Of a stretch of DNA of 64,000 nucleotides, positions 11,851 to 39,956 are shown piece by piece. Source of the DNA: Jeotgalicoccus saudimassiliensis (GTDB lineage: Bacteria; Bacillota; Bacilli; Staphylococcales; Salinicoccaceae). The translations under genes were made by a program, and so were the position numbers. The notes beneath the pieces are model-generated. The model was given only the letters and a program-made list of their open reading frames with translations, did no database searches and had not been told where the DNA came from. Where the stretch lies: positions 1,518,001-1,582,000 of the forward strand of contig NZ_CCSE01000001.1 in NCBI RefSeq assembly GCF_000756715.1. Reading direction: 5' to 3'. Positions within the stretch are counted from its first letter, which is position 1; every line of letters begins with the position of its first letter.

Positions 11851-11950
11851 TTCTTATCAAGAGAGATGGAGGGACTGGCCCTGTGAAATCTCGGCAACAG
11901 ACTTAATTGTACTGTGCCAAATCCTGTAGCATTACGCTAAAAGATGAGAA
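11851..11950 (+). ncRNA. SAM-I (S-box) riboswitch of metNPQ
   Basis: It has the S-box conserved blocks: AAGAGAGATGGAGGGACTGG, the CTGTGAAA segment and CGGCAAC. It is closed by a P1 stem TTCTTATC (11852-11859) with GATGAGAA (11943-11950). In this class S-adenosylmethionine binding stabilises P1 and allows the following terminator to form, turning methionine genes off when SAM is plentiful. Confidence 0.93.
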
Positions 11951-33970: not shown

Positions 33971-33976
33971 TATAAT
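33971..33976 (+). promoter_or_regulatory. -10 box for the second SAM riboswitch
   Basis: Consensus TATAAT, about 20 nt before the riboswitch P1 stem. No good -35 box is seen at 16-18 nt. Confidence 0.5.
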
Positions 33977-33995
33977 ATGAATTAAATAAAATAGT

Positions 33996-34100
33996 TCTCT
34001 TATTAAGAGCGAGTGGAGGGATTTGGCCCTGTGAAACTCCGGCAACAGCTGTAAAGCGATGTGCTAATTCCAACAGTTTATTTAAACTGGATGATAAGAA
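33996..34100 (+). ncRNA. second SAM-I (S-box) riboswitch
   Basis: Conserved S-box blocks are present: AAGAGCGAGTGGAGGGATTT, GGCCCTGTGAAA and CTCCGGCAAC. They end in GGATGATAAGAAG, with a P1 stem pairing 33998-34003 with 34094-34099. It shares the architecture of the metNPQ riboswitch at 11851-11950 but differs in the P3/P4 loops. It precedes a 57-codon gene rather than a known methionine gene. Confidence 0.92.
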
Positions 34101-34109
34101 GTCGGGTAA

Positions 34110-34145
34110 AGCTCTTCTTAATTCAGGAAGAGCTATTTTATTTGA
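34110..34145 (+). terminator. expression-platform terminator of the second SAM riboswitch
   Basis: AGCTCTTC pairs with GAAGAGCT (8 bp, 9-nt loop) followed by ATTTTATTT. It is placed exactly as in other S-box leaders and just before the 57-codon gene. Confidence 0.85.
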
Positions 34146-34169
34146 AAAAATAAAAAAGGTGGTAATAAT

Positions 34170-34343
34170 ATGAAGACCGTACGCGAACTATTTGCAGAAC
34201 TGGATTACTGGAAAGAATACAAACCGAACAGCACGATGAGTAATATCGCAAAAGTAAATCACATAGGCAGAGTCAAAAACGAAATCAAACAGCGCATTGA
34301 TGTTGAAGAGTACAGAGAATATATACTGTCAAAAGAAGCATAG
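34170..34343 (+). CDS. SAM-riboswitch-controlled 57-residue protein of unknown function
   Basis: This is a short gene with ribosome site AAGGTGG (34157-34163) and ATG at 34170. It encodes 57 residues beginning MKTVRELFAELDYWKEYKP and ending EYREYILSKEA. The product is highly charged and mostly helical, with no cysteine, no signal peptide, no membrane segment, and methionines only at 1 and 23. The middle (NIAKVNHIGRVKNEIKQRID) might be helix-turn-helix-like. It is the only gene between the SAM riboswitch and a strong terminator, so it should be made when SAM is low. I recognise no family. Adaptor or regulator of methionine metabolism is a guess. Confidence 0.75.
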   Translation: MKTVRELFAELDYWKEYKPNSTMSNIAKVNHIGRVKNEIKQRIDVEEYREYILSKEA

Positions 34344-34346
34344 GCA

Positions 34347-34388
34347 AAAAGTCCCGTATACTGACTGTCAGTATACGGGACTTTTTTA
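34347..34388. terminator. bidirectional terminator after the 57-codon gene
   Basis: Perfect 18-bp stem starting AAAAGTCCCGTATACTGA with a 3-nt loop. A and T runs on both sides serve the small gene and the convergent NAD(P)-binding protein gene. Confidence 0.92.
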
Positions 34389-34392
34389 CTAA

Positions 34393-35010
34393 TCACGTCG
34401 CAAGGCCGATTGACGAGTTTTCATATTTAGAATCCGTTAATGCTTTAACGATAAAGTGTGCAACGTCTGCACGCGGAATCGAACTTGATTTAGGCGGCAC
34501 ACCTGAAACCTCTTCTCGGTATTTACCTGTGAACTCTTTATCCGTTAAGCCCATCGGACGGACGATTGTATAGTTCAATCCTGCGTCCTGAATATAACCG
34601 ACTGCTGCACGATGATCGATTAATGCATTCTTAAGCAGCTGCATAATGACTTTTCCCATGATGCCTTTTAATTCGTTATGAACACCTGCTGATGCTGTGT
34701 AAACGATACGGTCGACGTTATTGTCTTTCATACCTTCGACGATATTTTTCGTCATACTCCGAATCTCTTCCGACTGTTTCATGCCTTTCTTCGAGCCGAC
34801 ACATGACACGACCGCATCATGTCCGGCAATGGCTGCACTGACTGCTTCCTTGTCAAATGCATCACCTTTCACTACATTTAACTTCTCGTGTGTCATACCA
34901 AGTTTTGATGGTGTACGTACAAATGCAGTCACTTCAAGTCCTGCATCGAGGCTTTGGCGTACTGTGGATTTCCCGACACCGCCTGTTGCTCCAAATACTA
35001 TAATCTTCAT
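34393..35010 (-). CDS. NAD(P)-binding atypical SDR (NmrA-like)
   Basis: This 205-residue Rossmann protein has the N-terminal motif FGATGGVGKSTV, VVKGDAFD, VVSCVGSKKG and YTIVRPMGL. It belongs to the NAD(P)H-binding SDR_a5/NmrA-like group, which includes flavin or quinone reductase-like proteins and redox sensors. The classical SDR catalytic YxxxK is not evident. It is divergent from the membrane protein gene at 35116 and monocistronic. The cellular role is unknown. Confidence 0.8.
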   Translation of the reverse strand: MKIIVFGATGGVGKSTVRQSLDAGLEVTAFVRTPSKLGMTHEKLNVVKGDAFDKEAVSAAIAGHDAVVSCVGSKKGMKQSEEIRSMTKNIVEGMKDNNVDRIVYTASAGVHNELKGIMGKVIMQLLKNALIDHRAAVGYIQDAGLNYTIVRPMGLTDKEFTGKYREEVSGVPPKSSSIPRADVAHFIVKALTDSKYENSSIGLAT

Positions 35011-36921: not shown

Positions 36922-36967
36922 AGGTTTATTTTGAAATTTAATATGTATCAGATACGGAGGATTGATC

Positions 36968-37228
36968 ATGAATAACGACGACTTAATAGTATGCAGATGC
37001 GAGGAAGTCAGCTATAAGACTTTAAAAGACACTGCCGAAAAATTCCAGTGCAGTTCAAGAGAGCTGAAATTGCGTACGCGTGCAGCGATGGGATACTGCG
37101 GCGGACGTTCATGCAGACCGGTGATTGATCAGATTGCGAACGACGATGTTCAAAGCAAAGAGACTGTTGCATTAAAATATCAGCCGCCTGTCCGGCCGAT
37201 CAGTTTTGGCAGTCTGGGAGGAGAGTAA
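36968..37228 (+). CDS. BFD-like [2Fe-2S]-binding protein
   Basis: This 86-residue protein has four cysteines in the BFD-type pattern CRCE..(x~30)..YCGGRSC, binding a [2Fe-2S] cluster. In related dehydrogenases this domain is often fused to the FAD subunit; here it is a separate small protein. I use the ATG at 36968 because ACGGAGGA at 36954-36961 is its ribosome site. It is the first gene of a tight four-gene operon (1 nt to the next gene) encoding a multi-subunit amino-acid or opine dehydrogenase. It probably carries electrons between the flavin subunits. Confidence 0.85.
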   Translation: MNNDDLIVCRCEEVSYKTLKDTAEKFQCSSRELKLRTRAAMGYCGGRSCRPVIDQIANDDVQSKETVALKYQPPVRPISFGSLGGE

Positions 37229-37229
37229 C

Positions 37230-37547
37230 ATGGCAGAAAGAATTACAGAGCATCCGGTACTTGGCAAGATCGACAAAAGCAGGTATGTTGATTTTCAGTT
37301 TGACGGTGTTACATATCAGGCAATAGAAAATGAATCATTGGCCGCCGCTTTACTAGCCAATAACATCAGAACACTCCGCCGGCACGAAAAGAGCGGCACT
37401 CCAAGAGGAATATACTGCAACATCGGACACTGCTTTGAATGCAGAGTAACCGTGAACGGAAAATCAGGAGTCAGAGCCTGTTTAACATGTGTTGAAGAAG
37501 GCATGGTCGTTGAAAGCGGCAAAATCATTCCGGAAGGTGAGGATTAA
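37230..37547 (+). CDS. [2Fe-2S] ferredoxin-like subunit (HcnA-like)
   Basis: This 105-residue protein has a cluster motif CNIGHCFEC...RACLTC, as in HcnA of hydrogen cyanide synthase, opine oxidases and D-hydroxyproline dehydrogenases. The segment YQAIENESLAAALLANNIRTLR is typical of the N-terminal part. It should bind a [2Fe-2S] cluster and link two FAD subunits. Ribosome site GGGAGGAGAG lies within the preceding gene's end. The next gene begins 2 nt after its stop. Confidence 0.88.
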   Translation: MAERITEHPVLGKIDKSRYVDFQFDGVTYQAIENESLAAALLANNIRTLRRHEKSGTPRGIYCNIGHCFECRVTVNGKSGVRACLTCVEEGMVVESGKIIPEGED

Positions 37548-37549
37548 TT

Positions 37550-38761
37550 ATGTATGATTCCATCATCATAGGGGCAGGTCCTGCGGGACTCACGGCTGCC
37601 TCGACCTGTGCCGGGCATGGCATGAAAGTTCTTGTAATTGATGAATACATGAAAGCCGGCGGCAGACTGCTCGGTCAGTTGTATGAAGAACCGGGCGGCG
37701 GCTGGTGGAACGGTATTGAAGAATCGCAGAAACTCTTTGCAGATGCCGTTAATCATGGTGCAGAAGTTATGTTGAGCACGCCGGTAAATGATATCGAAAA
37801 CAATGATGATCTATGGACGGTCTATACCGAAAAAGGTACATTCCAGACTAAAAAGCTGCTGCTTGCCACAGGTGCCGCTGAATCACCGGTCGCTGTACCG
37901 GGCTGGACATTACCCGGCGTAATGTCGGTCGGTGCTGCACAGGTCATGACGAACGTCCATCGTGTAAAACCCGGTAACCGCGGGATTATTATCGGCGTAA
38001 ATGTATTGTCCGCTGCGATTGCCATGGAATTAAAAATGGCGGATGTAGAAGTTGCCGGATTAACATTACCCGAAAAAAATATGATAACGAAAGATGCCGG
38101 CGATCCGAAAGCAGTGATTAAATCACTGCTCCACGTTTCTCATATGGCGCCGTCAATGTTTGTAAAATACGGCAGCAAGTTAATGAAAAATAACTTCATG
38201 CAGAATATGGGTGTGAAGTTTTATCCGAAAGACGGTGTGAAGATGTGGGGGATTCCAATCCAGCTGCGTAAAGCTGTCACTGAAATTTACGGTGACGGAC
38301 AAGTCGAGGGTGTTAAGCTCGCTTCTATTAATGCAGACGGTAGAGTCATACCGGGGAGCGAGAAGAGGGTTGCACTGGATTTCGTCTGTATCGCGGGTGG
38401 TCTGTACCCGTTAACAGAACTGGCCGGTGTCGCAGGATGTCCGTTTTATCTCGTTGAGGAACTCGGCGGATATATTCCACTGCACAATGACAATATGGAA
38501 ACTCCGCTTCCGGGACTTTATGTCGCAGGCAACATTACTGGTATCGAAGGCGCCAAAGTGGCTGCTGCACAGGGTAGAACAGCAGGATTATCGATGGCTG
38601 GTGACTTTACCGGTAAAGATATTGAAAAAGAGATTCAGGAATCAGTCAGTGAAACGGCAAATATCAGAGCGAATGCATACATACAGTTCCACCCCGATAT
38701 TAATGCCGGCAGAGAGAAGTTAAAAGAACAGTGGAAGCAGTATCAGCTGACAAATGAATAA
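37550..38761 (+). CDS. FAD/NAD(P)-binding dehydrogenase subunit (HcnB-like)
   Basis: This 403-residue protein has the FAD-binding GAGPAGLTAASTCAGHG at about 8-24, GGGWWNGIEESQ, ATGAAESPVAVPGWTLPGVMS, a second Rossmann region (GIIIGVNVLSAAIAME, with the usual GxGxxG altered) and GLYVAGNITGIEGAKVAAAQG near the end. It matches the alpha subunit of opine oxidase, hydrogen cyanide synthase B or the D-hydroxyproline dehydrogenase subunit. No cysteine-rich BFD domain is fused at its C-terminus; that part is the separate gene at 36968. The next gene follows 28 nt later. Confidence 0.88.
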   Translation: MYDSIIIGAGPAGLTAASTCAGHGMKVLVIDEYMKAGGRLLGQLYEEPGGGWWNGIEESQKLFADAVNHGAEVMLSTPVNDIENNDDLWTVYTEKGTFQTKKLLLATGAAESPVAVPGWTLPGVMSVGAAQVMTNVHRVKPGNRGIIIGVNVLSAAIAMELKMADVEVAGLTLPEKNMITKDAGDPKAVIKSLLHVSHMAPSMFVKYGSKLMKNNFMQNMGVKFYPKDGVKMWGIPIQLRKAVTEIYGDGQVEGVKLASINADGRVIPGSEKRVALDFVCIAGGLYPLTELAGVAGCPFYLVEELGGYIPLHNDNMETPLPGLYVAGNITGIEGAKVAAAQGRTAGLSMAGDFTGKDIEKEIQESVSETANIRANAYIQFHPDINAGREKLKEQWKQYQLTNE

Positions 38762-38789
38762 TTCATCAATATATACAGGAGGGAATACT

Positions 38790-39956
38790 ATGACAAAGAC
38801 GCACTGTGACGTTGTGGTCATCGGCGGCGGTATTATCGGTGCCGCCATTGCCTACTACGGTTCAAAAAGCGGTCTGGATATTACGATGCTTGAAAGAGGA
38901 GATGTCGCAAGCGGAACTTCTTCAAAATGTGACGGCGATATTTTGGCAGTAGACAAAGATCCCGGATTCGACAGCAAGATGTCTTTTGAGAGTCAGAAAC
39001 TGGTCAGCGAATTAAGCAGAGAACTCGATATTCCATTTGAATACCGCAGTCCCGGCAGTGTTATGGTCTGTGAAAATGAAGTGGAGCTGGAAGCCGCAGA
39101 GCGCTGGGTTAACCAGCAGCAAAAAGCGGGACTGGACTTTAAAATGCTAAACCGTGAAGATCTGCGCAATGAATCACCGTATCTCGCAGATAATCTGTAC
39201 GGCGGGCTGGAGTGCAGCACCGACTCCATCGTCAATCCGTATCTGCTGACTTTTTCGATGGTGGATAAAGCAAAGCAGTACGGTACCAAAATACATACGC
39301 ATACCGAAGTGACAAATCTTCATAAAAATCCGGACGGTACGTTTAATATCGAAACTTCGAACGGCATGTACACAGCAAACAAAGTTGTAAATGCATGCGG
39401 CGCCTGGGCACCGTTTATCTGTAATATGCTCGGACTCGACATTCCGATTAAACCGCGTAAAGGCCATGTTCTTGTCGCTTCCAGACAACAGCAGGTGGCT
39501 TCCAGAAACATTATGGAGTTCGGCTATTTGATTTCCAAATTCGGCGGGGAACGCCAGGTTGATCCCGTAACTGAGAAGTACGGTGTCGCACTCGTTATGG
39601 AACCGACTGAAAGTCAGAACTTCCTCGTCGGAAGCAGCCGTCAGTTTTTAGGATACGATACGAAAGTCAGCCACGATGTCGTCAAACACATTGCCAAAAG
39701 AGCTGTAAGATTCTTTCCAAAAATTGATGACATGTCCGTTATCAGAGCATACGCAGGACTTCGTCCGTGGACAGAGGACCACCTGCCGTTTATTTCACAT
39801 GTAGAAAAAGTACCCGGTTTTTATGTTGCAGCTGGTCACGAAGGGGACGGGATCAGTTTAGCCGCAGTCACGGGCAAACTTATTGCAGAAATGATTAACG
39901 GTACAGAAACGACTGTACCGGTTGAGCCGCTCCGCTTTGAGCGTTTTAATGCTTAA
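38790..39956 (+). CDS. FAD-dependent amino-acid dehydrogenase subunit (DAO family, HcnC-like)
   Basis: This 388-residue D-amino-acid-oxidase-fold protein has VVVIGGGIIGAAIAYYG at the start, GTSSKCDGDI, NACGAWAP and the C-terminal GLRPWTEDHLPFI and AAGHEGDGISLAAVTGKLIA. This is the catalytic subunit that oxidises an amine, in the glycine/D-amino-acid/opine class. I start it at the ATG at 38790 after ACAGGAGGGA; the frame opens earlier at 38754 without a ribosome site. With the three preceding genes it makes a complete membrane-linked dehydrogenase. The substrate is unknown. Confidence 0.88.
   Translation: MTKTHCDVVVIGGGIIGAAIAYYGSKSGLDITMLERGDVASGTSSKCDGDILAVDKDPGFDSKMSFESQKLVSELSRELDIPFEYRSPGSVMVCENEVELEAAERWVNQQQKAGLDFKMLNREDLRNESPYLADNLYGGLECSTDSIVNPYLLTFSMVDKAKQYGTKIHTHTEVTNLHKNPDGTFNIETSNGMYTANKVVNACGAWAPFICNMLGLDIPIKPRKGHVLVASRQQQVASRNIMEFGYLISKFGGERQVDPVTEKYGVALVMEPTESQNFLVGSSRQFLGYDTKVSHDVVKHIAKRAVRFFPKIDDMSVIRAYAGLRPWTEDHLPFISHVEKVPGFYVAAGHEGDGISLAAVTGKLIAEMINGTETTVPVEPLRFERFNA

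Follow-up and report, generated by a model that had tools for sequence, protein, structure and literature searches.

What does an S-box do when it controls nothing larger than a 57-codon gene? The S-box targets known so far are sulfur genes of normal size, whereas the sole target here belongs to an unnamed family; and since the genes under S-boxes are taken to belong to methionine/SAM metabolism, these riboswitches have been used for the assignment of function. The locus lies in a window of 64,000 nucleotides from Jeotgalicoccus saudimassiliensis, the whole stretch of DNA analysed here.

The SAM-I (S-box) aptamer occupies positions 33997-34100 of the forward strand and matches the Rfam family RF00162 over its full length (model positions 1-108 of 108), with a score of 75.9 bits against a gathering cut-off of 44.4 and an E value of 4.9e-16. 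An earlier note on this DNA had let the S-box start at 33971; that position belongs instead to a TATAAT-like -10 element (33971-33976, forward strand), read from the sequence as the candidate promoter of the S-box unit. No good consensus -35 box was found for it, and the promoter scan lists nothing there. Terminator scan and folding place an intrinsic terminator of 10 pairs, followed by the T-rich tail ATTTTATTT, at 34110-34134 of the same strand. The sequence TAAGAAG at 34095-34101, mostly the 3′ side of the aptamer stem P1, is exactly complementary over its 7 nt to CTTCTTA (34114-34120), which lies in the terminator's 5′ arm. It was read as the 5′ strand of an antiterminator (forward strand) overlapping the 3′ strand of P1, and the exact complementarity renders antiterminator and terminator mutually exclusive. 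Folding of the leader returned both the aptamer and the terminator (z -2.49), and the terminator by itself gave z -3.65. The full S-box with its own terminator described in the earlier note is thus recovered. Judged from these pairings, the arrangement is the usual S-box one, sharing with SAM-I riboswitches the aptamer, a P1 stem that competes with the antiterminator, the terminator and the downstream gene. By eye, the antiterminator layout is similar in the leaders of relatives and the terminator is kept in the 33 leaders compared, with 66-75 nt from aptamer to start codon, so that the expression platform looks retained across them.

Transcription-terminating S-boxes allow read-through when SAM is low. 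At high SAM, the aptamer would bind its ligand, P1 would keep nucleotides 34093-34100, and the terminator at 34110-34134 would end transcription. At low SAM, 34095-34101 would pair with 34114-34120, the terminator would be blocked, and a short mRNA encoding the 57-residue protein alone would be made. Synthesis of the protein under SAM shortage would therefore follow from the known mechanism of this riboswitch class.

The gene itself extends from an ATG at 34170 to 34343 on the forward strand, preceded by the ribosome-binding site AGGTGG at 34157-34162 (forward strand, read from the sequence); the open-reading-frame call, its relatives, dN/dS ratios and the structural model described below bear on its assignment as a small helical-hairpin protein dedicated to an S-box. 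Behind it, folding places a terminator acting on both strands at 34346-34386, a 19-bp hairpin flanked by A and T runs; the stretch 34340-34392 has a folding energy of -31.1 kcal/mol (z -10.2). The next gene, at 34393-35010, runs on the opposite strand and the S-box unit therefore looks monocistronic. The claims that the 57-codon gene is the sole target and that a strong bidirectional terminator closes the unit both held, as the frame stands alone between the S-box and the 19-pair hairpin.

Conservation of this reading frame in relatives, which had been proposed as a check, was then assessed from substitution ratios. The dN/dS values were 0.07-0.15 between the window gene and five other Jeotgalicoccus-group sequences, and 0.06-0.14 between the window gene and the neighbouring genus g2. 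Over the defined pairs compared, which leave aside one identical pair and one with saturated dS, they were 0.05-0.19, bar one close pair at 0.35. The frame is kept, and by these ratios the 57-codon frame is a real gene under purifying selection. These values also bear on the idea that the active product is the transcript, which the S-box would release to act in trans, as is reported for Listeria SreA. Although a short transcript is indeed expected between two strong terminators, the low dN/dS in all defined pairs but one, the conserved start and Shine-Dalgarno sequence, and the similarity between distant groups at the protein level argue for a translated product, and we hold a regulatory RNA to be very unlikely.

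The distribution of the family was determined by successively broader searches. A search with the single sequence found relatives in 16 of 60 genomes, its own included, with an S-box ahead of each. Profile A1 matched 62/157 genomes of the order and 19/398 of the class; the core profile A3 (42 columns) matched 71/157 and 26/398, respectively, the latter including 6 genomes from another Bacilli family. Of the 28 sequences in A2, 24 were used to build A3: L054, L057 and L061 were dropped as close to retained ones, and L064 because its S-box is not adjacent. This last locus was nevertheless re-found by A3 (in genome G039) and is counted among the 83 distinct loci obtained by pooling the A3 matches of the order and class searches at E <= 0.01. 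The matches in the other Bacilli family are weak (E 2e-5 to 8e-4), but since A3 scores protein only, the S-box present at every one of them supports them independently. The weakest matches (E 3e-5 to 0.006) within genus g8, a set of 84 genomes that is probably Staphylococcus as judged from sau-13 matches, correspond to the operon, S-box-less and fragment loci described below. Profile-profile comparison joined the main group to a tailed group (E 8e-14) and, by hhalign, to the group of operon and S-box-less paralogs (E 6e-8), both being one-against-one values; these matches therefore support the unity of the family. Profile A8, made from longer members, matched 15/388 genomes of the class, of which 6 were the already-known genomes of one other family. 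Of the remaining nine matches (E 1e-4 to 0.006), two fall in genomes already holding the family, and seven, inside long frames of 305-806 codons, were taken as chance. A phage or plasmid origin of the small gene was dropped: plasmid and phage searches with the window protein, a plasmid search with two other members, and one search pattern in viral contigs gave no match. A3 had no match in 86/157 genomes of the order, including 3 of the 9 of the window's own genus, and the small gene changes state 10 times on the metK tree of the 84 g8 genomes. By this distribution the gene is dispensable.

How strictly the gene is tied to the riboswitch was evaluated by scanning all 83 loci against Rfam at the gathering cut-off. 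An S-box lies directly upstream at 75/83. At three others (G039, G057 and G047) the small gene is second, immediately after a gene of the Cys/Met PLP-enzyme type that is itself led by an S-box. NCBIfam identifies this gene as an O-acetylhomoserine sulfhydrylase, over the cut-off, in G039; in G057 it matches Pfam PF01053, and in G047 it was assigned by eye. The remaining five, without S-box, comprise the degraded copy of G106, the fragment of G110 and three copies of one divergent paralog, in G038, G134 and G143; these copies each lie 3′ of a small gene that is tautomerase-like by eye, and that of G038 lies upstream of a DJ-1/PfpI gene. The expectation that an S-box always precedes the gene is thus correct for the 75 direct cases, extends to the three genes within S-box-led operons, and fails for these five. 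With six S-boxes in 2.19 Mb, as in this genome, an S-box would by chance fall on the correct strand and no more than 250 nt away at about 3 in 10,000 loci. A near-obligate pairing of S-box and small gene is well supported by these counts. As side observations, the divergent members at L086 (1468-1629), L090 and L091 stand behind an S-box-led gene of the O-acetylhomoserine sulfhydrylase type. A DJ-1/PfpI-like gene lies downstream in L086, and reading by eye places one in L090 and L091 too; at L093 the S-box-less paralog is likewise followed by a DJ-1/PfpI gene.

The other S-boxes provide the context of this pairing. The 2.19-Mb genome has five S-boxes besides the one studied here. Three stand before ATPase genes of the MetN type, for which TIGR02314 is the best NCBIfam model, below its cut-off; the other two precede an NhaC-type antiporter gene (PF03553, over the Pfam cut-off) and metK (TIGR01034, over its cut-off). 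One of the five (88.2 bits) falls inside the window, at 11851-11950, where it leads a gene for a methionine transporter of the MetN type. Among 77 S-boxes from 12 genomes of the same family where the small gene had no match, 75 stand, by eye, ahead of a long open frame; one of these frames (L099) is interrupted, and many are recognisable sulfur genes as judged by eye, not sorted by models. The two exceptions are L130 and L152. L130 (G014) is an orphan riboswitch, an S-box with no gene within several hundred bases. At L152 (G011) the leader is 80% identical to that of the window, the next best of the 77 being 68% and the median 61%, and it is followed by a 25-codon frame, probably a remnant, in a genome with no match to the family.

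This last locus could be read as a sign that the window gene is itself a selfish or decaying leftover, in which the front part of a formerly larger S-box gene has persisted by chance after truncation. Broken copies point the same way: those of G043 (L019/L055) and G319 (L084) are interrupted by an in-frame TAG and TAA, respectively, that of G106 (L195) is degraded with no S-box match, and that of G110 (L222) is a fragment lying about 6 kb away from an intact one. Purifying selection and the presence of the family in 71 of the 157 genomes of the order are, however, at odds with decay, and none of the 62 aligned members exceeds 100 residues, so that no large parent gene is seen; we give this possibility hardly any credence.

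The anatomy of the protein was then considered. AlphaFold2, run with six sequences, predicted helices at residues 4-16, 22-43 and 46-56 (pLDDT 84.6, pTM 0.67), the C-terminal part being less sure (69 and 72 for the last two ten-residue blocks). The window protein is accordingly modelled as a helical hairpin with a third helix; by eye it has no transmembrane stretch and is soluble. Conservation was read from an alignment of 62 of the 83 loci, in which the reading of the L087 row begins one codon ahead of its start; the other 21 are broken or paralogous copies, copies that start off the matched stretch, and others not added. Within it, L11 is conserved in 59/62 sequences, P19 in 51/62 and S/G24 in 61/62, and three positions (M/I/V/L26, K/R28 and I/L39) are conserved in 62/62. 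The loop and the start of helix 2 follow the pattern P-x-[SN]-x-x-[SG]-small-[MI]-x-[KR]. The aligned members measure 53-100 residues, and such a conserved core in proteins of so variable a length would suit an adaptor better than an enzyme. By eye, the branch beginning MRTR (L059, L061-L063, L066, L203, L205-L208, L210-L219) carries varied tails, many of them beta-hairpin-like, and a second branch (L065, L084, L085, L087-L089) carries a long coiled coil with FG near its end. These branch-specific tails hint at lineage-specific partners.

The protein could not be placed in any named family: its best E values were 0.094 in Pfam, 0.019 in NCBIfam and 0.052 in PHROGs, far below the cut-offs where these are given. 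Other members scanned reached 0.0019 in Pfam, a match of the coiled-coil type, and 0.015 in NCBIfam. A search of PDB sequences gave no credible relative (best E 0.017), and Foldseek with the model gave 0 matches at E <= 0.001. The description of a small, charged, helical and unrecognised protein therefore stands. VIA-align returned middling hairpin matches, among them several short chains of large ribosomal subunits, such as 6v39_X (Z 6.0, rmsd 1.3, 45 aligned) and 4wf9_V from S. aureus (Z 5.4, rmsd 1.9, 47 aligned), beside unrelated rows such as 2a26_A (Z 6.9) and Ufd2 (Z 6.6); the protein was assigned to no fold family. From their length we presume the ribosomal chains to be ribosomal protein L29. 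This likeness of overall shape, at Z of about 5.4-6.0 to chains whose identity is presumed, and the basic residue K/R28, invariant in the 62 sequences, would suit a protein that binds the ribosome or another RNA and tunes translation as methionine, and with it the charging of initiator tRNA, declines. However, VIA-align Z values below about 13 are common for helical bundles, the unrelated 2a26_A and Ufd2 score above the ribosomal chains, and there is no credible sequence relation to L29 among the PDB entries; the resemblance lies within the background for helical hairpins. The net charge (+0.6 for the window protein, family median -0.2) is moreover atypical of a small RNA-binding protein. We regard such a role as quite unlikely.

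A gene that mostly stands free under a metabolite sensor, and a loop that combines the invariant basic residue with small ones, might also specify a protein that binds or buffers a small ligand (methionine, SAM, homocysteine or a metal) and is no protein adaptor. A two-helix hairpin with some 40 conserved residues nevertheless leaves little room for a pocket, conserved polar side chains are few, and Cys and non-initiator Met are rare in the family; ligand binding is in our view unlikely. Because the S-box is near-obligate, three loci follow a sulfhydrylase-type gene and the protein bears no catalytic signature, we favour an adaptor or regulator that would act post-translationally on the methionine/SAM machinery through the conserved loop and start of helix 2, a proposal to which we assign about an even chance. 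This segment would dock onto one of the proteins in the methionine/SAM network, whose activity or stability would be altered during shortage. Candidate partners in this genome would be the products of the other S-box genes, namely the three MetN-type transporters, the NhaC-type antiporter and MetK; that these genes are of the methionine-uptake type or metK supports an adaptor of the methionine network. Further candidates, from relatives, would be O-acetylhomoserine sulfhydrylase and the family of B12-independent methionine synthases. The lack of a match in 86 of the 157 genomes, the three S-box-less paralogs, the neighbours that vary by genus and the failure of the synthase association, described next, to withstand correction for relatedness count against the adaptor.

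The methionine synthase was followed across genus g8. The small gene and a gene resembling B12-independent methionine synthase (PF01717) were both present in 31 of the 84 genomes, the small gene only in 3, the synthase only in 11, and neither in 39. The synthase thus occurs in 31/34 genomes with the small gene against 11/50 without it (Fisher p 2.7e-10, uncorrected for relatedness). Counted among the 34 genomes are G106, with its degraded copy, and G043, with its broken one; G039, G047, G057 and G143, which hold divergent paralogs only, were left out. The synthase-positive set includes two broken genes, with an in-frame stop in G099 and in two pieces in G115. On the metK tree of the 84 genomes the synthase changes state 7 times, and a test on five independent pairs along well-supported branches gave about 2 concordant, 0 discordant and 3 uninformative pairs, which is not significant. 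The raw association may be explained by relatedness, and the functional link, which does not survive this correction, is kept only as a lead. Within the window's own genus the trend is opposite, an S-box-controlled synthase subtype being confined to three genomes without the small gene; G025, G017 and G033, from other genera, hold both. In eight g8 genomes, which form a single clade on the metK tree, the synthase follows the small gene at a distance of about 0.5-2 kb and on the same strand, sometimes with other open reading frames between. A T-box leader precedes the synthase in all five of these genomes examined, and it is probably methionine-specific since AUG is present in the specifier region in four alignments of the L227-L231 set, the loci at which the S-box/small-gene unit was seen near a T-box-led gene of the methionine synthase type.

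We then compared this system with those already described. SgrT is a small post-translational regulator made on nutrient stress. The S-box product resembles it in its very small size, its conditional synthesis and its presumed action on a partner already present. It differs from regulators of that type in that these have identified partners and are not known to be controlled by riboswitches. The switch is an ordinary S-box and its target is not an ordinary one, the riboswitch being dedicated to a small-protein family that most likely has a post-translational role. Published work on staphylococcal methionine control covers, in its accessible parts, metICFE-mdh and SA0011 (PMC3771891, PMC3386247), and the S. 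aureus S-box target SA0011 is a homoserine O-acetyltransferase (PMC3386247). A survey of riboswitch regulons mentions 'novel genes' under SAM riboswitches in Bacillales in general terms, and its accessible main text names no such small family (PMC3766115). A literature search over available main texts, PMC6848492 included, found no paper on the small-protein family.

That so widespread a family mostly has an S-box to itself points strongly to a missing component of methionine/SAM metabolism, here in a well-studied bacterial order, the Staphylococcales, and the small protein is likely a new player in it. If the adaptor proposal is true, the S-box would regulate through a protein that tunes existing enzymes or transporters, rather than through an enzyme or transporter gene. 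The fuller version of this proposal, an unnamed family of small adaptors dedicated to SAM shortage that retune existing methionine enzymes or transporters, and thereby form a second, post-translational layer of S-box control in the Staphylococcales and some other Bacilli, is more tentative, and we place it somewhat short of an even chance.

The genomic surroundings were also inspected. In 20 neighbourhoods of the small gene viewed by eye, the flanking genes differ between genera; in the window and at the Jeotgalicoccus loci L023-L027, the unit lies 3′ of a gene for a D-2-hydroxyacid dehydrogenase. Neighbouring genes were rejected as a clue to function, as the flanks vary by genus and the dehydrogenase has no evident sulfur link. 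Further along the window, positions 36962-39956 hold two small Cys-containing frames and two FAD-type oxidoreductases, the last of which is nearest to glycine/D-amino-acid oxidases, below the cut-off; we presume this cluster to encode a multi-subunit amino-acid dehydrogenase.
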